Shown here: positions 7,270-19,837 of the stretch, one piece after another
How positions within the stretch are numbered: the first letter of the stretch is position 1
Layout of the letters: each line of letters opens with the position of its first letter
IMG/VR virus record: IMGVR_UViG_3300031566_000404
Coordinates: 1-22,270 of that record
Strand: one strand, 5' to 3'
DNA: 22,270 nucleotides
DNA from: a virus
Translations under genes and position numbers: made by a program
The notes under the pieces: model-generated
Databases searched by the model: none
What the model was told of the DNA's origin: nothing
The model's input: the letters and a program-made list of their open reading frames with translations, nothing else

Positions 7270-7314
7270 AGAGCCCGGGCGGGATGAACCCGGACAACTG
7301 AAGGAGATTTGATT

Positions 7315-8640
7315 ATGAGCGCAAAGACGGAACTGTTTTCACGATGGTTGGGCGGCAACCTGGTGGTCGCCGATCAGGGGCTTTCGACGGGTCGGCGCGT
7401 GTTCGTCCACAGCACGGACGGAACAGACGCCGCGGGCTACGGCGCGAGCCCCGATGCGCCGGTGGCCACCCTCGACTATGCGGTCAGTCTGTGCACGGAC
7501 AACGAGCATGACATCATCTACCTCATGCCCGGCCACACGGAGAGCCGTGCGGTCACCGGGGAGCTGGCGGACCTCGACATCGCCGGTATCGTCGTACAGG
7601 GCATGGGCGCCGGGGCGGACCGGCCCATCTTCACCCTCGGCCACGCGACCGCGAAGATCACGGTCGATGGCGCGAGCATCACCATCCGGAATATCCGCGT
7701 GGTTTCCGACGTCGCCGACTGCGCCCAGGCGCTCGACGTCGGGGCCGCCGCCGACGGCCTGACCATCGAAGACTGCGAGTTCGAGGACGGCGGCACTGAC
7801 GTCACGGAACTCAAAGAGGCGATCAAGATCGCTGCGGCCTGCGATGACGTGACGATTCGCAACTGCCGGTTTCTGACGGCTGCCGGCGGCACCATCACCA
7901 GCGCCATCACCTTCGAGGGCGCCAGCGACAACAGCCGCATCGAGCGGTGCTATTTCAACGGTGATTTCGGGACCTCCGCGATCCTCGGCAGTGCCGCAGC
8001 GCAGACGCGACTGCTGCTCCTCAACAACTGGATGAAGGTGCTGGACGGCGAGCCGGGCATCGAGCTCCACGCCAACAGCGAGGGCGTCATCGCCGACAAC
8101 CGCATCGAGTCCACGTCGATCACGGATCCGGATGCCGCGATCGTCGCGGCCGACTGCTCCTGGTTCGAGAACTACGTGGTCGATGCCGACGGCGGCACGG
8201 CACAGTTGATCGGAACGGGTACGGAAAGCGTCCAGGGCATCGGCACGCTCTTCTCAGTCAAGAAGACCATCACGAAGACCGCGATTGTGGCGGCAGGGGT
8301 CGATGTCACCGCCGCGAGTTCGGGCGGCGCCCTGCTCCTGGAGGACTGCATTCTCCAGAACGACACGACCGAGATCGATTCGGCCGGACACGCCGAGGTC
8401 ATCGAGTTCTACACCAACAACGCCGCGGGCTCGACGTCGTTCATGACGATCGCCGCGAGCGTCTTGGCCAGCGAGATGAGGGACCTGCGCGACGCGACGA
8501 CCGGCATGAGGGTGGTGCTCGAAAGCGGCAAGAAGGTGACGGTCAAGGCGACCACCGAGGACGTCACCAGCGGCGGCACGTGCGACGTCTACCTCATTTT
8601 CCGGCGTCTGGCCGCTGGGGCCGCCGTCGCAGCTGCGTAA
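7315..8640 (+). CDS. Parallel beta-helix virion protein (capsid region)
   Basis: This protein of 441 residues has an N-terminal segment (about 1-85) containing FVHSTDGTD, GYGASPDAPVATLDYA and IIYLMPGHTES, a combination I recognise from beta-helix proteins encoded beside phage capsid genes. Residues about 90-330 are rungs of a right-handed parallel beta-helix: ITIRNIRVVSD, GLTIEDCEFEDG, DVTIRNCRFLTA, SRIERCYFNGD and VIADNRIEST recur at about 22-35 residues. The last 110 residues form a separate domain rich in strands. There is no signal peptide. ATG at 7315 is set by AAGGAG (7301-7306); a TTG two codons earlier is less likely. The position argues for a capsid fibre or decoration rather than a tailspike, but a sugar-binding or sugar-cleaving activity cannot be excluded. 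Confidence 0.8.
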   Translation: MSAKTELFSRWLGGNLVVADQGLSTGRRVFVHSTDGTDAAGYGASPDAPVATLDYAVSLCTDNEHDIIYLMPGHTESRAVTGELADLDIAGIVVQGMGAGADRPIFTLGHATAKITVDGASITIRNIRVVSDVADCAQALDVGAAADGLTIEDCEFEDGGTDVTELKEAIKIAAACDDVTIRNCRFLTAAGGTITSAITFEGASDNSRIERCYFNGDFGTSAILGSAAAQTRLLLLNNWMKVLDGEPGIELHANSEGVIADNRIESTSITDPDAAIVAADCSWFENYVVDADGGTAQLIGTGTESVQGIGTLFSVKKTITKTAIVAAGVDVTAASSGGALLLEDCILQNDTTEIDSAGHAEVIEFYTNNAAGSTSFMTIAASVLASEMRDLRDATTGMRVVLESGKKVTVKATTEDVTSGGTCDVYLIFRRLAAGAAVAAA

Positions 8641-9137: not shown

Positions 9138-10019
9138 ATGGGATTGAAACAGACGATAGCACCGCGGGCGCTGCCGGTGACGGTGGACGAGTTGAAGCTG
9201 CACTCGCGCATTGACATCGACACGGACGATACCATCGTGGCGACGTACCTCGCGGCGGCACTCGCCAGGGTCGAGGCCTACCTTGGCCGGCAGTTGATCT
9301 CGGCCACGTACGAGTTGGCGCTTGCCGCGTTGCCGAGTGAGATTGTGCTGCCCCGTCCGCCGCTCGTCTCGGTCAGCTCAATCACCTACGTCGACGGAAG
9401 CGGGGAGACGCAGACGCTCGCGACAAGCTACTACACCGTCGACACGCGGGCCTACGTCGGCCGCGTCATCCCCGCCTACAACCAGACCTACCCGACCGTC
9501 CGCGGCTACCCGGCCGACGTGCTTGTCACGTATGTCGCGGGTTACGCCGTGCCCTTCACCGCCGCGCCCGGCAGTGGAAGCGGTAGTGGTTCGGGGTCCG
9601 GGTCCGGCAGTGGGAGCGGTAGCGGTTCGGGGTCCGCGGAGACGGACATCCTGACGTTCCTCGGCCGCAACCCCGTTGACGGCGAGGCGGCGGTGCTGAC
9701 CAATTCGGGCGGGTCGACGCGCGCGCTCCCGGCGGGCCTGGCGGAGGACCTCACTTGCTACGTCCGGGACGCTGAGGGCGCCACCTGCAAACTCGCCGCG
9801 ACGGCGGACGGCGACGCCATCGACATCACGGACACCGGCACCGGCACGCACTTCTTCGGTTGCGTCCCCGCGAACATCCGCGCGGCGATTCTCCTGACGG
9901 CGGCCGATTTCTATGAAAACCGCGAGGAGATGATTACCGGTGCCCCGATAGCCACGATCCCGCACGGCGTCGAGGCGCTCTTATATCCCTATCGCGTCTT
10001 CAACCGGGGGAGCGACTGA
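9138..10019 (+). CDS. gp6-like head-tail connector with an inserted GS linker and beta-domain
   Basis: This 293-residue protein should form the first connector ring below the portal. Residues about 11-60 are the canonical helical start (VTVDELKLHSRID, LAAALARVEAYLGRQL), and 74-135 hold the strand region ending in DVLVTYVAGYA. In normal gp6-like proteins a helix with 'xxAxLLxxxxxYENRE' follows directly; here that helix (NIRAAILLTAADFYENREEM) comes only at about residue 245. Between them lie a 22-residue (Gly-Ser)11 tract (145-166) and a domain of about 75 residues containing RALPAGLAEDLTCYVRD and AIDITDTGTGTHFFG. That pattern recalls a small beta-domain repeated in other phage virion proteins. 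ATG at 9138 follows GAGG; a longer upstream reading of this frame overlaps the previous gene and was discarded. Confidence 0.88.
   Translation: MGLKQTIAPRALPVTVDELKLHSRIDIDTDDTIVATYLAAALARVEAYLGRQLISATYELALAALPSEIVLPRPPLVSVSSITYVDGSGETQTLATSYYTVDTRAYVGRVIPAYNQTYPTVRGYPADVLVTYVAGYAVPFTAAPGSGSGSGSGSGSGSGSGSGSGSAETDILTFLGRNPVDGEAAVLTNSGGSTRALPAGLAEDLTCYVRDAEGATCKLAATADGDAIDITDTGTGTHFFGCVPANIRAAILLTAADFYENREEMITGAPIATIPHGVEALLYPYRVFNRGSD
9570..9635 (+). repeat. (Gly-Ser)11 coding tract, built from a duplicated 30-bp unit
   Basis: The 66 bases encode eleven Gly-Ser pairs inside the connector protein. The DNA consists of a 30-bp unit (9570-9599), a GGGTCC spacer (9600-9605) and a second copy of the unit (9606-9635) that differs at two third-codon positions only. 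Both changes are silent, so the dipeptide sequence is conserved while DNA drifts. Confidence 0.85.
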
Positions 10020-10429
10020 TGCGAGCCGGGCGGTTGCGCCACCGAATCACGATCCAGAGCCTGACCGAGACGCGGGACGGCGCCAATCGCGTCACCGGCG
10101 AGATGTGGACGGCGGTATACGAGAATGTCCCCGCGCGCATCCGACCCATGTCCGTCAACGAGCGCCTCGCGGCGGCGCAGACCGCCGGCAGCACCATGCA
10201 CGTGGTCGAAATCAGGTATCACAGCGGCGTCACCGCGGACATGCGCATCCTTGCGGGCTCGCGCGTCCTGGAGGTCGTCGGGATCCGCGACCCCGAAGAG
10301 CGTCACCGGGAACTGTGGATTGACTGTATCGAGACCGGCGCCGAGGTCGGCGCGGGGTCCGGTAGCGGTAGCGGTAGTGGTAGCGGTTCCGGGTCCGGCA
10401 GCGGGTCCGGCAGCGGGAGCGGCGAGTAA
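10019..10429 (+). CDS. Head closure / head-tail joining protein (SPP1 gp16-like)
   Basis: This 136-residue protein probably forms the ring that closes the filled head and receives the tail. The start MRAGRLRHRITIQSLTE, the WTAVYENVPARIRPMS segment and the late strands 'HVVEIRYHSG' and 'RVLEVVGIRDPEER' are the standard order of the phage head-tail joining family, which is normally about 105-115 residues long. The extra length is a (Gly-Ser) tail of about 23 residues followed by Gly-Glu and stop. The gene starts in the stop codon of the connector (TGATG at 10017-10021) and its own stop overlaps the next gene, so the neck genes are coupled. Confidence 0.9.
   Translation: MRAGRLRHRITIQSLTETRDGANRVTGEMWTAVYENVPARIRPMSVNERLAAAQTAGSTMHVVEIRYHSGVTADMRILAGSRVLEVVGIRDPEERHRELWIDCIETGAEVGAGSGSGSGSGSGSGSGSGSGSGSGE
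10355..10423 (+). repeat. C-terminal (Gly-Ser)n tail of the head closure protein
   Basis: The 69 bases encode Gly-Ser pairs that end two codons before the stop. Codons are mixed (GGT, GGG, GGC with AGC, AGT, TCC). No domain follows it, unlike the internal tract in the connector. Confidence 0.85.
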
Positions 10430-11314: not shown

Positions 11315-11728
11315 ATGTCCGCTCCAAAGATCTACACTGGCGTCACAATCGGTTTTGGCACTTCGGAGTTCGACCTTGAAGTCCTGGCGGTGACGCCGCC
11401 GGGCGGTTCGGTGGGGAAGGTTCAGACCAGCCATCAGGGGACCACCGGTACGCACACATTCCTGCCATTGAAGCTGGTGGAGCCAAAGTCGCTGGAGTTC
11501 GATGCCCACTATGACCCAGAGGTCACGCCACCCCTCGGTGTCTCGCAGACGATCACCGTGACGTATCCCGATGGCGGCGAGACGGAAGCCTTCACGGGAT
11601 GGCTCGAGGACTATACCCCCGGCAGCGGTTTCGAGGACAAGGGCACGGTACATTGCGTGGTTGCATATTCCGGGGCTATCGAACGCGGAAGCGGCTCCGG
11701 AAGCGGATCGGGGAGCGGAAGTGAGTAG
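11315..11728 (+). CDS. Major tail (tube) protein
   Basis: This small 137-residue protein is the best candidate for the tube subunit, which stacks as hexameric rings around the tape measure protein. It contains beta strands typical for tube proteins (KIYTGVTIGFGTSEFDL, GTHTFLPLKLVEPKSLEF, QTITVTYPDGGE, FTGWLEDYTPG). The last residues are a (Gly-Ser)6 tail ending in Glu. AAAGGAG lies just before the ATG. It is followed by the frameshifted chaperone gene pair and the tape measure gene, the standard siphovirus order. Family identity is based more on position and fold pattern than on a signature motif. Confidence 0.85.
   Translation: MSAPKIYTGVTIGFGTSEFDLEVLAVTPPGGSVGKVQTSHQGTTGTHTFLPLKLVEPKSLEFDAHYDPEVTPPLGVSQTITVTYPDGGETEAFTGWLEDYTPGSGFEDKGTVHCVVAYSGAIERGSGSGSGSGSGSE
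11687..11722 (+). repeat. C-terminal (Gly-Ser)6 tail of the tail tube protein
   Basis: The 36 bases encode six Gly-Ser pairs, followed by Glu and stop. The arrangement parallels the tail of the head closure protein, including the final Glu. Confidence 0.85.
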
Positions 11729-14278: not shown

Positions 14279-14310
14279 CACAACCGACGAGTGCGGAACG
14301 CGGAATTCAC

Positions 14311-14422
14311 AGTTCGGAGTGTGGAGTTCGGAGTTCGGAGTTTTTCACTCCGCATTCCCCGTTCGGCACTCCGCATTCCCCGTTCGGCACTCCGCATTCC
14401 CCGTTCGGCACTCCGCATTCGG
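14311..14422 (+). repeat. Intergenic 21-bp repeat array with inverted left arm
   Basis: Three identical 21-bp units (CACTCCGCATTCCCCGTTCGG) occupy 14346-14408, with a partial fourth copy to 14422. The preceding bases (about 14311-14340) carry GTTCGGAGT-type units that are roughly the reverse complement, separated from the array by a T5 run, so the whole could fold back as an imperfect hairpin. It fills most of the 160-base gap between the tape measure gene and the next gene. Similar short GGAATTCGG/CATTCCGCACTC repeats are scattered in intergenic regions of several bacterial genomes (from memory). Reading frames through it encode meaningless seven-residue repeats. Confidence 0.8.
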
Positions 14423-14438
14423 AAGAGGCGGTGACGAC

Positions 14439-15296
14439 ATGGCGGTTGTAAGCGTCAATGAGGATTACTCCGGCAGGCGCGCCCAGGTGACTGAGGCGGG
14501 GGCCTCCTATACGCGGGTGTTCAAGGTCGTGGTGGGCGCGGCAACGGACGGGCCCTATGTGGCGATCTATGCCGCCAGCATCCCCGATTACGGCGACGCC
14601 CACCCGCACGATACGAGCGCGAAGGTGACGACGATCACCGCCGAGCCGGTCGACAACGACGACTGGCAGGTCCACCGGGTCACCGTCACCTACAACGACA
14701 AGCCCTCCGGGTGGGCGGCGAGCCCCCTGGACGAAGACCCGAAGATACAGTGGTCCGGCGTCGAGCGGACGGCGGTGCAGGCCCGCGACAGAAACGACAA
14801 CGCGATTCTCAATTCCGCCGGCGACCTCTTCGACCCGCCGCTTGAGGGGACGCTCCACGAGCCGGAAGTGACGATCGTGAAGAATCAAGCGCATTGGAAC
14901 CCGTTCCTGGCGGCGCAGTATCGAGGGGCGATCAACAGTGACACCGTGAAGATCGCCGGTTTTGCGGCGGCCCCCGGCCAGGCGCTGATGACGGTCATGG
15001 ACGGGACGACAGCCAACCGGAACGGCGTGGACTACATCGAGGCCACCTACAGGATCAGGTTCTGGCCGACGTACAGAACGTTCCTCCTGGACCACGGGCT
15101 CCATTATCTCGTGACGATCGGGGCGACGACCTACAAACGGCGGATCATGGTGAACGGCGAGGAGGTTCAGGAGCCCCAGCGACTGGACGGGTCGGGAGGT
15201 GTTCTGGCGCTGGACGGCGACAGCGTCTTTCTGGAGTTCGACACGAAACGCGAAAAGGTCTTTGGCGACCTCAATCTGCCGACTGATTTTGAATAA
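14439..15296 (+). CDS. Tail-tip/virion structural protein, unknown
   Basis: This 285-residue protein has no recognised family. It looks strand-rich: RVFKVVVGAATDGPYVAIYA near residues 25-45, 'WQVHRVTVTYNDK' near 79-91, a middle segment naming DPPLEGTLHEPEVTIVKN (about 131-148), then IEATYRIRFWPTYRTFLLDHGLHYLV (about 191-217, given as landmarks RIRFWPTYRTFL and HYLVTIGATTYKRR) and LDGDSVFLEFD near the end. Charged residues dominate, and there is no membrane segment. A start at 14319 would read through the repeat array; the ATG at 14439 with AGAGG upstream is preferred. Position after the tape measure gene suggests a distal tail or baseplate component. Confidence 0.7.
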   Translation: MAVVSVNEDYSGRRAQVTEAGASYTRVFKVVVGAATDGPYVAIYAASIPDYGDAHPHDTSAKVTTITAEPVDNDDWQVHRVTVTYNDKPSGWAASPLDEDPKIQWSGVERTAVQARDRNDNAILNSAGDLFDPPLEGTLHEPEVTIVKNQAHWNPFLAAQYRGAINSDTVKIAGFAAAPGQALMTVMDGTTANRNGVDYIEATYRIRFWPTYRTFLLDHGLHYLVTIGATTYKRRIMVNGEEVQEPQRLDGSGGVLALDGDSVFLEFDTKREKVFGDLNLPTDFE

Positions 15297-15844: not shown

Positions 15845-16441
15845 ATGCCGCTAGTCTGGGTCGACGAAAACGGAGATGACCAGTACGTCGGGGTCATGAA
15901 GCTCGGGGGCGGCCTGACCATGACCGACCTGGGCGACGGCGTCTGGGAGCTTGCCTCTACCGGCGGTTCGGCTTCCGGCTCGGGTTCCGGGTCGGCTTCG
16001 GGTGGTTCGGGGTCGGCTTCGGGTGGGTCCGGATCGGCTTCGGGCAGCAGTTCAAGCGGCCCCACGGGCTCGGGCAGCAGTTCAAGCGGCCCCACGGGCT
16101 CGGGCAGCAGTTCAAGCGGCCCCACGGGCTCGGGCAGCAGTTCAAGCGGCCCCACGGGCTCGGGCAGCAGTTCAAGCGGCCCCACGGGCTCCGCTTCGGG
16201 CTCCGCTACCGGCTCGGGCAGCGGGCCTCCCGAACCAGGCTTTTACTGCATATGGCAGGATGTCTGGATCGGGAAACTGAATTGTCCCGGCGACCCCACC
16301 ACCTCGATGGCCCAGGGCTGCGTTTATTACTACGATCGCCCGGCGGAGGAAGAATGCGAGAATTCTCTGCCGGACTCATCGAAAATTCGCTACGCCGGAC
16401 CGTATGAGGACGCGATGGACTGTGATATGGGATGCTTCTAA
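15845..16441 (+). CDS. Ser/Gly/Pro/Thr-rich repeat fibre-like protein with six-cysteine domain
   Basis: This 198-residue protein has three parts. Residues 1-37 form a small folded N-terminus (MPLVWVDENGDDQYVGVMKL, then GDGVWELAS) of a type seen at the start of fibre proteins. Residues about 38-135 are low complexity, first Gly-Ser-Ala rich, then five copies of SGSSSSGPTG (about 66-115). The C-terminal 65 residues hold six Cys (FYC, LNC, QGC, EEC, MDC, GCF), which would suit disulfides or metal binding, plus the landmarks VYYYDRP and YAGPYEDAMD. The mucin-like middle could be an O-glycosylated stalk and the Cys domain a tip. A strong site (GGGAGAGGG) precedes the ATG. It lies just upstream of the modification genes. 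Confidence 0.75.
   Translation: MPLVWVDENGDDQYVGVMKLGGGLTMTDLGDGVWELASTGGSASGSGSGSASGGSGSASGGSGSASGSSSSGPTGSGSSSSGPTGSGSSSSGPTGSGSSSSGPTGSGSSSSGPTGSASGSATGSGSGPPEPGFYCIWQDVWIGKLNCPGDPTTSMAQGCVYYYDRPAEEECENSLPDSSKIRYAGPYEDAMDCDMGCF
16040..16189 (+). repeat. Five identical 30-bp coding tandem repeats
   Basis: The unit runs from TCGGGCAGCAGTTCAAGC to GGCCCCACGGGC and repeats without a single difference at 16040, 16070, 16100, 16130 and 16160. Identity at silent positions indicates a recent expansion. Each unit adds SGSSSSGPTG to the fibre-like protein, so copy number changes would alter stalk length without changing the frame. Confidence 0.95.
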
Positions 16442-16453
16442 TAGGAGGATGCG

Positions 16454-16873
16454 ATGATGCCGGTTGATTGCACTTACGCGCGGAGGACGCGCAGGCATCC
16501 GACGATCGGTTGCACCATGAACGCCTGTACGCTCGCAGAGGCGGCAGGCGGCCATCGAGGGGTTTACGTGCCGCACTCGCACTGCGCGACGTGCGCCGGC
16601 ACCGACGACGGCGCAAGCCACGTCAGCAGGGTGATTGACGCGGCGCTCGCGCGCCGGATCGCGTTCGACTGGAACCGCGAGGTCGCGTGCGAGACGTGCG
16701 GCGGCCCGACGTTGACCCTTGATAAAGCTATCGAGGCGCTGAAGGCCCGTGACGCGCAGAAGGCGCAGGACGCCCTGGTGCGTGCGGTGGAGTCGGGCGG
16801 GATGCCCCAGGCGCAGGCCGAGGCGCTTGCCGAAGCTCATTTCGGTGGCGCTCCCGTCGAGGCGCCCGCATGA
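16454..16873 (+). CDS. Cys-rich putative zinc-binding protein, unknown
   Basis: This 139-residue protein (or 138 if the ATG at 16457 is used; AGGAGG at 16443-16448 suits both) has seven Cys in the first 82 residues: C6, C20, C25, C44, C47, C79 and C82. CATC and CETC form two Cys-x2-Cys pairs that could hold zinc. The rest is helical and ends in a low-complexity Ala/Glu segment (AQKAQDALVRAVESGGMPQAQAEALAE). No membrane segment is seen. It lies between the fibre gene and the glycosyltransferase gene, with which it shares ATGA. The glycosyltransferase has its own Cys-x2-Cys near its start, so the two may be functionally linked. No function is assigned. Confidence 0.65.
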   Translation: MMPVDCTYARRTRRHPTIGCTMNACTLAEAAGGHRGVYVPHSHCATCAGTDDGASHVSRVIDAALARRIAFDWNREVACETCGGPTLTLDKAIEALKARDAQKAQDALVRAVESGGMPQAQAEALAEAHFGGAPVEAPA

Positions 16874-17925
16874 CGGCATTAAGCGAACGCATCCGCGAGG
16901 CCGCCGCCCATCCGAAACCCCGGCGGGACCTCCGTAATTGCGGCACCTGCAAGGAACGGATGCTGGCCAAGATGCGAATTGATGTCGTGGCGCAGCGGGC
17001 AGCCGGATTTGAGGGTCGGATCGTCGTCGTCATGCCGGTGCGGAATGAGGGCGTCAAGGCGGTCGAAACCGTCCGCCAGCTTCGCGCCATGAAGGCCCCC
17101 GGAACGCATCTTCATTTTGCCGTCGTGGATGACGGCTCGACGGACCGCTGTTGCGAGATTTTCAAGCCGGCGCGCGATTGCACCGTCTGGCGCAACGTGG
17201 AACCGATGGGCCAGGGCGTCGCGCGCAATCTGGGCGTGCTCGCGCAGGAGGCCGATGCGTATCTTTCTATCGATGCTCATATAGAGATCGGCCCACATGA
17301 TGCCGAAAAGCTGGCCGTGCTCGCCGAAGAGTCCGGCGGCGTCGTCGGATGTCTTTCCGGGAGCCTGGCCAACAGAAAGAACTTCCGCGGGTGCGGCCAC
17401 CGATGGGAGCGCAAACCGAATCCGGTGGGTCGCGCGATCATGGGCAGCGTCTGGAATTATCACCGCGTTGACACGCGCGCGCTCATCCCGGTCCACCGTC
17501 ATGCCGGCGCCTGCTATGCGTTCACGCGAAAGACCTATGACCGCTTCGGCGGGTTCGGCGAGACGCGGGGCCTGTACGGGTTCTTCGAGCGGGACCTGGC
17601 GGTGCGCTGCCGGTTCACGGGCGTCCCGCAACTGGTGTACCCCGATGCCCTGGCCTGGCACTGGTATCGCAAAAACCGGCCCTACCGCATGACGGGACTC
17701 GGCTACTGGCAAGGGTACGTTGAGAGTCTCCGGACCACCTTTCGGCCGGATGTATGGAAGCGGGTGTTTGAGCCCGCGGCGCGGCGGACAAACGACAGCC
17801 GTCTTCACGACCCGGTCCTCGATTGGATGCTTCGCGACCCACGGCTCCTGATTCTCCAGGCTGATTTTGAGCGGAAGAAGGTCGTTTCGGATGAGGAGGT
17901 CCTGGGGTGGCTCGGCCTGACCTGA
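16870..17925 (+). CDS. Glycosyltransferase, GT2 fold, polypeptide GalNAc-transferase-like motifs
   Basis: This 351-residue protein is a GT-A fold glycosyltransferase. After an N-terminal 48 residues with NCGTCKERM (C24, C27), it contains VVVMPVRNEG (52-61), the nucleotide-binding VVDDGSTDR (85-93) and LSIDAHIEI (132-140). The DxH motif in place of DxD is the metal site of eukaryotic polypeptide GalNAc transferases, and GACYAFTR, FGGFGETRGLYGFFERD (225-242) and HWYRKNRPY (264-272) match the order of that family's acceptor region. I infer transfer of a sugar onto Ser/Thr, perhaps of the Ser/Thr-rich fibre protein nearby. The donor and acceptor are not shown. It starts in the stop of the previous gene and overlaps the methyltransferase gene by 19 bases. 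Confidence 0.85.
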   Translation: MTALSERIREAAAHPKPRRDLRNCGTCKERMLAKMRIDVVAQRAAGFEGRIVVVMPVRNEGVKAVETVRQLRAMKAPGTHLHFAVVDDGSTDRCCEIFKPARDCTVWRNVEPMGQGVARNLGVLAQEADAYLSIDAHIEIGPHDAEKLAVLAEESGGVVGCLSGSLANRKNFRGCGHRWERKPNPVGRAIMGSVWNYHRVDTRALIPVHRHAGACYAFTRKTYDRFGGFGETRGLYGFFERDLAVRCRFTGVPQLVYPDALAWHWYRKNRPYRMTGLGYWQGYVESLRTTFRPDVWKRVFEPAARRTNDSRLHDPVLDWMLRDPRLLILQADFERKKVVSDEEVLGWLGLT

Positions 17926-18530
17926 CCTATATCGACCAATACTATGGGTACGCCGCTGACCTGATGGGGCAGGCGCCGTGCGTCATTGAGGTCGGCACAT
18001 CGAGCCTTCATGCGACAGCGGCTCTCCGCAAAACCTGGCCCCTGGGGCGCTATGCGCTCTTCGAGGCGGACCCGGGCGCCTACGCGCACCTGGCTGCGCT
18101 CGACCTGCCGGACGGAGTGACGGCCCATCATGCAGCTCTGGCCGACGCAGACGGGCAGGCTCGGTTTCATCGGTCGAAGCGCGCGAGCGCCAACAGCCTG
18201 TTCAAGGGCGTCGCAACCGACGAAACGGTGACGGTCGAGGGCGTGCGGCTGTCGACGATGATGGGAGTAGCCGGGTTCGAGATGCTCGACCTCTTGCTCC
18301 TGAACTGCGAGGGGGGCGAGGTCTACGCCCTGGCCGAGCTCGTGAAACGGCCGGAACTGACGGAGCGCGTGAAGCAGGTCTGCGTGAGTTTCCACTGTTG
18401 CCACGTCCACCATTACCCGCCGGTCCTGCGGGATGTCCTGCTCGATGCACTCCGATGGGCCTATGAGGTCACGCCGCTGCGCTGTCGCGAATACGATTAC
18501 TGGTTGCTGACCTGGGAGGAGGGCCCCTGA
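17907..18530 (+). CDS. FkbM-like SAM-dependent methyltransferase
   Basis: This 207-residue protein has the Rossmann-type layout of the FkbM family: the SAM-binding strand VIEVGTSSLHATAAL (26-40), the acidic strand-end FEADPGAYAHL (52-62), and the family's LLLNCEGGEVYAL (130-142), which corresponds to the usual 'KIDVEGAE'. FkbM-type enzymes usually O-methylate sugars or polyketides. It starts with GTG at 17907 behind GAGGAGG (17893-17899) and overlaps the glycosyltransferase gene by 19 bases, so the two are coupled. I infer that it methylates the sugar added by its neighbour. N replaces the usual Asp in the NCEGGE motif, so activity is uncertain. Confidence 0.85.
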   Translation: MARPDLTYIDQYYGYAADLMGQAPCVIEVGTSSLHATAALRKTWPLGRYALFEADPGAYAHLAALDLPDGVTAHHAALADADGQARFHRSKRASANSLFKGVATDETVTVEGVRLSTMMGVAGFEMLDLLLLNCEGGEVYALAELVKRPELTERVKQVCVSFHCCHVHHYPPVLRDVLLDALRWAYEVTPLRCREYDYWLLTWEEGP

Positions 18531-19837
18531 TGCACATCTATGACCTCTGCCTTATCAATCCGCCGAAGCCGTACCTGGTGAACCCGCACGCGCAGGCGCC
18601 GCTGGGCCTCCTCTATCTGGCGGCGGCGGCCGAGACGAACGGGGCTCTCGTCCGCATCGTCAATCTCGCCGGGGCTGGTATGGAGGCTGCGCGCTGGCGC
18701 ATTCCGCGCGCGAACATCTACGGCATCACAGGCACCTATCTGGACGTCGAGGCCGTGAACGCGGTGGCCCGCGCGATCAAGGCGCGATACGGCAGCGATC
18801 GCCATGTGATGGTCGGCGGACCGATCGCACTGTCGGCGAACGAGCTGGACCGCGACGCGATTGACCTGGTCGTGGTCGGAGAGGGCGAAGGGGTTGTGCA
18901 GAGCATCACGAGCGACGACGGCTGGAACTATTACGATAGCTATATTTCCGGTGTCCCCGCCGACATAAACGCCCTGGCGCTGCCCGCCCGCCACCTCTGG
19001 CCCGGACCGTTCGGCGGCAACGTATTCATCGGCGGCACAAACTATTTCGGGGGCGGCTCCGCGACGCTGCTTACCTCCCGGGGCTGCCCCTACTCCTGTG
19101 CGTTCTGCGCGGGGCCCGCCCTCCGCGCGAGCGTGAAGGTGCGGTTCCGCGAACCGGGCAGCGTCGTTGCCGAAATGGAGTCCCTCGTCACGGACTACGG
19201 CGTGCGGCAATACCGCCTGTCGGACGAACATTTCACTTGTAGCCGCGAGCACGTCGAGAGTATCTGCGCGGGCATCCGGGCAAGCACTATCCTGAAGCAC
19301 GGCGCGGATCTGGCCTGGCGCGCCTCGATCGCGGTGAATCCGCACGACCTCGAGCTCTTCGGCACGCTCCGTTCCGCCGGTTGCCGCGAGGTGGCGCTCG
19401 GAGTCGAATCGGCGGACCCCGTCGTCCTCAATCTCATCGCGCGCAAGGGCGATCCGTTCGACGCGCGCGAGGCACTGAAAAACGCACGGACCGCCGGCCT
19501 CCGGACCAAGGCGCTGTTGATGGTGGGCCTGCCTGGGACATTGCCGATAACCGGCAGGCTCAATGCCGAGTTCATTCGAGCGGATGTGGCCGACGCGATC
19601 GCCATCACGGCCTTTACGCCGATACCCGGCTGCGCTATCGCGAGGGACCCCGAGAAGTACGGCTGCCGCCTCATCTCCGAGCGCGTGAAGCGGAGCTTAT
19701 GCGCCTACGGCCCGGACGGCCTGAATGCAATCGAACCGGCCATAGAAATCGACGGTATGCCGGATGCCGAGTTCGCCCGCCAGATGCGCGAGACGATCGC
19801 GGCGGCATCGGGGGCGGGATTGTTGGGGAAGGGATAA
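18530..19837 (+). CDS. Radical SAM enzyme, BchE-like with N-terminal cobalamin-type domain
   Basis: This 435-residue protein has the INPP motif near residue 10, a Rossmann-like N-terminal domain (GGPIALSANE, LVVVGEGEGVV near 115-123), and the radical SAM cluster motif CPYSCAFC (C186, C190, C193; Cx3Cx2C). GVESADPVVL and MVGLPGTLPITGR are typical later elements. BchE-like enzymes often methylate or rearrange unactivated carbons. The DxHxxG cobalamin-ligand motif is not visible, so B12 binding is doubtful. The start overlaps the methyltransferase stop by one base (TGATG). It is the last of three coupled enzyme genes, and I infer a role in building or altering the same product. The substrate is unknown. 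Confidence 0.85.
   Translation: MHIYDLCLINPPKPYLVNPHAQAPLGLLYLAAAAETNGALVRIVNLAGAGMEAARWRIPRANIYGITGTYLDVEAVNAVARAIKARYGSDRHVMVGGPIALSANELDRDAIDLVVVGEGEGVVQSITSDDGWNYYDSYISGVPADINALALPARHLWPGPFGGNVFIGGTNYFGGGSATLLTSRGCPYSCAFCAGPALRASVKVRFREPGSVVAEMESLVTDYGVRQYRLSDEHFTCSREHVESICAGIRASTILKHGADLAWRASIAVNPHDLELFGTLRSAGCREVALGVESADPVVLNLIARKGDPFDAREALKNARTAGLRTKALLMVGLPGTLPITGRLNAEFIRADVADAIAITAFTPIPGCAIARDPEKYGCRLISERVKRSLCAYGPDGLNAIEPAIEIDGMPDAEFARQMRETIAAASGAGLLGKG

Follow-up and report, generated by a model that had tools for sequence, protein, structure and literature searches.

The IMG/VR record analyzed here, the full 22,270 bases of which are referred to as the window, is a fragment of an HK97-type siphovirus with terminase, portal, S49 protease, capsid, connector, and tape-measure genes. 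Among genomes, the nearest relatives of its terminase (47–50% identity) are found in prophage-like loci of Phycisphaerae/Planctomycetota, and the phage host is therefore probably a planctomycete. To our knowledge, planctomycete phages are almost unstudied. Directly after the minor tail genes, five tightly packed genes, all open and on the + strand, fill positions 15845–19837 (Table 1). They encode a Ser/Gly/Pro/Thr-rich stalk protein, a Cys-rich protein, a glycosyltransferase (GT), an FkbM methyltransferase (MT), and a radical SAM enzyme, and all five lie where an earlier note on this DNA had placed them. A 12-nt gap separates the stalk and Cys-rich genes. The remaining junctions are overlaps: ATGA between the Cys-rich and GT genes, 19 nt between the GT and MT genes, and 1 nt (TGATG) between the MT and radical SAM genes. 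All five reading frames are kept in two more IMG/VR contigs, L002 and L003, at 98–99.7% DNA identity across the region.

Other features of these phages lie outside the cassette. A right-handed beta-helix protein is encoded between the capsid and connector genes (7309–8640), and perfect 21-nt tandem repeats are found between the tape measure and the next gene (14311–14420); L002, which is 98% identical, lacks the stretch 14306–14439 that spans these repeats. A related phage, L014 (41% in TerL), carries a GT2–methyltransferase fusion between its terminase and portal genes (L014 2497–3921).

Table 1. Features of the cassette and candidate acceptor segments, in window coordinates
Feature	Positions	Strand	Remarks
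(Gly-Ser)n insert, head-tail connector, further possible acceptor	9570–9636	+	
(Gly-Ser)n tail, head completion protein, further possible acceptor	10355–10429	+	found in L006 too
(Gly-Ser)n tail, putative tail-tube protein, further possible acceptor	11687–11728	+	
Tail stalk protein, proposed glycan acceptor	15845–16441	+	downstream of tape measure and minor-tail genes
Five perfect 30-nt repeats, coding SGSSSSGPTG	16040–16191	+	TRF; copy number differs between near-identical phages
Small Cys-rich protein	16454–16873	+	weakly similar protein at same place in L111
GalNAc-transferase-like GT (GT-A fold), 351 aa, no transmembrane segment or lectin domain	16870–17925	+	
DAH, DxH metal-binding motif (D135, H137)	17272–17280	+	
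HWYRKNRPY, third metal ligand H264	17659–17685	+	aligned with HVFRKQHPY of GalNAc-T2
FkbM-family methyltransferase	17907–18530	+	TIGR01444
Radical SAM enzyme, weak N-terminal B12-binding-like domain	18530–19837	+	CxxxCxxC at 19085–19108

The stalk protein, for which no match was found in Pfam or PHROG, is built from a short N-terminal domain, a Gly/Ser/Pro/Thr-rich stalk, and a Cys-rich C-terminal domain. Its repeat consists of 5.1 perfect, DNA-identical copies of the 30-nt unit (TRF score 304), and SGSSSSGPTG is present in five copies in the window, five in L002, and four in L003. A repeat number that varies between near-identical phages is expected of a slippage-prone stalk. The Cys-rich protein aligns with its counterpart in the chromosomal locus L111 at ~3 SD above shuffles, a score that is not significant alone.

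By Pfam, the GT is a plain GT2 enzyme (PF00535, 1.3e-12). The earlier note had likened its DxH and HxxRKxxPY motifs, here IDAH (residues 134–137) and HWYRKNRPY (residues 264–272), to those of polypeptide GalNAc-transferases (GalNAc-Ts). With human GalNAc-T2, the sequence match is weak (phmmer, E 0.022) but extends across the whole catalytic domain, and DxH, AG(G/A), and HxxRKxxPY fall in register within one full-domain alignment. ArnC-type GTs slightly outscore the GalNAc-Ts by sequence, over a shorter stretch. The DxH and distal His residues of the metal site (D135, H137, and H264) are invariant across an alignment of six homologues, in which the window GT is joined by two from rare Planctomycetota genomes (L104 and L111) and three from planctomycete chromosomes (L103, L195, and L196), each 21–25% identical to it. 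GalNAc-Ts are also matched by sequence with the GTs of a distant phage, L271 (3.3e-10), of L195 (2.6e-11), and of Cytobacillus (6.8e-21); a sequence search with the L111 GT alone matched no GalNAc-T.

The structural comparison of GT27 with GT2 enzymes that had been proposed favors GT27. An AlphaFold2 model from the six sequences has a pLDDT of 74 and a pTM of 0.77 (a model from three sequences only, pLDDT 38). In a Foldseek search of the PDB with this model, the best 50 matches listed were all polypeptide GalNAc-Ts (GT27; best E 7e-16), and VIA-align placed GalNAc-Ts at ranks 1–29 (Z 22.8–26.7 over ~290 residues), with the next family at Z 18.7; identity over the aligned fold is 13–18%. As a control, the sequence of a generic GT2 that had come up in the same searches was compared; it matched chondroitin synthase but none of the GalNAc-Ts, so the GalNAc-T match is not given by just any GT2. 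No transmembrane segment was detected in the window GT (maximum 19-residue hydropathy 1.21), and a Pfam scan of its 351 aa found no ricin-type lectin domain. The enzyme probably works like a polypeptide GalNAc-transferase. No description of prokaryotic GT27 enzymes was found in the literature covered, a partial sample with most subscription journals outside it.

Related enzymes occur in other settings. In planctomycete chromosomes, a family of DxH GTs (L103 9891–10826, L195 7280–8263, and L196 8033–8959) neighbors waaA-like (Kdo-transferase-like) and sugar-symporter-like genes. The waaA-like neighbor could indicate a lipid acceptor for these sister enzymes; despite this neighborhood, the L195 GT finds GalNAc-Ts first by sequence. 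In Cytobacillus spongiae, a GT with DAH and HLFRKSHPY (L160 5989–6864), which matches GalNAc-T10, lies near cotE and a gene for a TPTPTPT protein, making glycosylation of a spore-surface protein possible there.

The other two enzymes are also what the earlier note took them to be. The MT is an FkbM enzyme: its TIGR01444 score of 47.1 bits exceeds the cutoff of 37.7, and PF05050 falls below its own. The radical SAM enzyme matches PF04055 (1.8e-20) and carries its CxxxCxxC motif as CPYSCAFC; the B12-binding domain PF02310 scores 27.3 bits against a cutoff of 32.1, which the relatives L186 and L187 exceed. Its best PDB match is AprD4, a sugar-modifying enzyme that acts on an aminoglycoside. The best cellular relative (37%) is part of a radical SAM–MT–GT2–FliD operon, and the next three sit beside Gfo/Idh, DegT-like, formyltransferase, hexapeptide transferase, and CgeB-like GT genes. 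Around the phage relatives lie genes for GTs, MTs, epimerases, pyruvyl transferases, and sulfotransferases, with GT2 in 10 of 101 nearby ORFs versus 1 of 75 ORFs in a control set that was chosen differently. A glycan-tailoring role of the radical SAM enzyme is supported by these cellular and phage neighborhoods. Members of the B12-type radical SAM family occur widely among phages (L201–L278), often between structural genes and accompanied by GT, MT, CgeB-like, sulfotransferase, and epimerase genes. Two ORFs neighboring phage relatives contain a 5-hmdU DNA kinase helical domain.

Comparison of the window with L002 gives 35 differences in the MT gene (pN/pS 0.15) and 57 in the radical SAM gene (pN/pS 0.20), and both genes are therefore under purifying selection. 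These 92 differences form a diverged tract at about 18100–19350, while the GT and Cys-rich genes are identical; from this pattern, the stretch is taken to be a recombination tract. Since the MT and radical SAM genes diverged as one tract and are both under purifying selection, they appear to have been exchanged together.

Near-identical phages were the only ones in which the complete gene set was found. When viral contigs were scanned with the GT or the radical SAM enzyme as a single-protein query, no other phages were recovered, GT alignments used as queries gave no additional relatives, and GT searches of phage records gave no match. A strict HxxRKxHPY scan of viral contig DNA returned two stretches, with a GT seen in neither. 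The cassette was in none of the Planctomycetota prophages collected by TerL, several of whose contigs ended upstream of the tail genes, and an MT search across 382 Planctomycetota genomes produced a single weak match.

The pairing of a GalNAc-T-like GT with a Ser/Thr-rich protein recurs in distant loci of phage type. In L111, a tail-like (TTTTxxP)n protein with a Cys-rich end is followed by a Cys-rich protein, a TTTTTTTP Cys-rich protein, and the GT, an arrangement that L104 resembles. These two loci share a chromosomal place, both near a prolyl-oligopeptidase-like gene, and so are not independent; no MT or radical SAM gene was found beside either GT. The phage locus L271 has an SPSPSSS-tailed structural protein ending SPSPSSSPSPSASVSSS, an ORF without a Pfam match, an MT, a pyruvyl transferase, a radical SAM homologue, and a GT, for which ranks 1–16 against the PDB are all GalNAc-Ts. 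Across 78 phage loci with the radical SAM enzyme, counted with the window relatives left out, no locus but L271 has a DxH GT of the GalNAc-T-like type, and none but L271 has a strongly S/T/P-rich protein (p 0.013). As for whether the genes stay together in relatives, the GT and its Ser/Thr-rich partner do so in distant loci, but the exact set does so only in near-identical phages. The use of a Thr/Pro-rich protein as a predictor of a nearby GT was rejected; of 38 viral contigs with TTTTxP repeats, 0 had a GT that passed the GalNAc-T-like model.

These data suggest a mucin-like sugar decoration that the phage applies to its own tail. Enzyme families, predicted fold, and gene coupling come directly from computation, as do the purifying selection on the MT and radical SAM genes and the recurrence of a mucin-like protein with a GalNAc-T-like GT. 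It seems reasonably probable that the Ser/Thr-rich tail stalk undergoes mucin-type O-glycosylation in the cytoplasm through this cassette, and that the MT and radical SAM enzyme tailor the sugar. In the scheme we infer for acceptor, sugar, enzyme activity, order of steps, and benefit, glycosylation of the virion protein would take place in the host cytoplasm, where the soluble GT-A enzyme, of the polypeptide GalNAc-transferase type, would put GalNAc or a similar sugar on Ser/Thr of the SSSSGPTG stalk. The host would have to supply the donor, probably a UDP-sugar, as no nucleotide-sugar genes were recognized in the window. The Gly-Ser tails of other virion proteins may also be glycosylated by this GT. 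The radical SAM enzyme would then tailor the sugar by deoxygenation, epimerization, or C-methylation, and the FkbM enzyme by O-methylation, with the outcome that the tail-tip stalk may be stiffened, protease resistant, or receptor tuned. For the glycosylation cassette proposed in the earlier note, the GT27-like fold, the recurrent pairing, and the sugar-gene neighbors speak in favor; against it, phages commonly encode Ser/Thr-rich, Thr/Pro-rich, and poly-Thr proteins in the absence of such a GT.

The main rival to stalk glycosylation is modification of the host surface, in which the GT, MT, and radical SAM enzyme alter a surface glycan or an S-layer or flagellar glycoprotein and block superinfection in the manner of Gtr seroconversion genes, with the stalk a mere neighbor. 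Phage GTs often modify the host surface, a weak match to the GtrB-like PHROG 841 was obtained (E 0.0025), sister GTs adjoin the Kdo-transferase-like gene, and radical SAM relatives are found in surface-glycan and flagellar clusters. We consider this unlikely, though the strongest of the alternatives: the GT is without a transmembrane segment, unlike lipid-linked GTs, and its fold matches protein-directed GTs first, while no flippase gene was found within the window and the genes are coupled to tail genes instead of forming a separate moron.

The small Cys-rich protein directly upstream of the GT also raises the prospect of peptide maturation in the style of glycocins or RiPPs, where a Cys-rich precursor modified by the three enzymes would serve as a toxin or immunity factor. 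Some RiPP clusters include FkbM enzymes, and the radical SAM enzyme matches RiPP-type and PhpK-type models, below cutoff. However, its relatives accompany sugar genes, not RiPP genes, L111 has a Cys-rich protein and a GT without an adjacent radical SAM gene, and no protease, exporter, or leader-recognition gene was found, making this improbable. Still further from likely is DNA hypermodification, with the three enzymes making and decorating a modified base of the phage genome. In its favor is the 5-hmdU DNA kinase domain near radical SAM relatives in other phages; against it, no gene of that type was found among the window proteins scanned, the cassette sits in the tail module and the GT fold matches polypeptide GTs.

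Tail stalk glycosylation would have both parallels and differences among known systems. The window GT shares with GT27 enzymes (such as GalNAc-T2 and T10) the predicted GT-A fold, DxH with a distal His, and HxxRKxxPY, and it neighbors a Ser/Thr/Pro-rich protein that resembles a mucin acceptor. It differs in being phage encoded, soluble, free of a ricin-type lectin domain, and partnered with an MT and a radical SAM enzyme. GALNTs include a lectin domain (PMC4202792); the window GT is not filed as one because this domain is absent and its activity is a prediction. In the account of Freeman et al. 2023 given in PMC12363180, mycobacteriophages Che8, Corndog, and Myrna glycosylate their virions with phage GTs. 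The likeness is in phage-encoded GTs, proposed here to decorate virion proteins, but the mycobacteriophage enzymes modify the capsid and tail tube, and Che8 gp108–gp110 showed no convincing profile similarity to the window GT (hhalign probabilities 0.1–7.6%, three-sequence profile). We know of no radical SAM enzyme in mycobacteriophage virion glycosylation. A flagellin-type glycosylation operon, the FliD operon named above (G156), likewise couples a homologous radical SAM gene to an MT and a GT beside a filament protein, but it is chromosomal and uses other MT and GT families. Further parallels are phage sugar-gene islands (L204, L207, L208, and L220) that combine radical SAM, GT, and MT genes, often among structural genes; in islands with the B12-type radical SAM enzyme, no GalNAc-T-like GT or mucin-like protein was found, L271 excepted.

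Virion glycosylation by phage GTs is already known, and the surprising part is a phage and bacterial GalNAc-T-like branch. Mucin-type O-glycosylation is regarded as belonging to eukaryotes. Mucin-type polypeptide glycosyltransferases may have a prokaryotic and phage branch that phages use, with radical SAM and MT enzymes, for a mucin-like glycosylated tail stalk; this is a tentative proposal that we put just short of even. If true, mucin-type O-glycosylation would extend to bacterial viruses, the many unannotated sets of GT, MT, and radical SAM genes in tail modules would be explained as virion decoration, and the cassette would offer a small cytoplasmic enzyme set.
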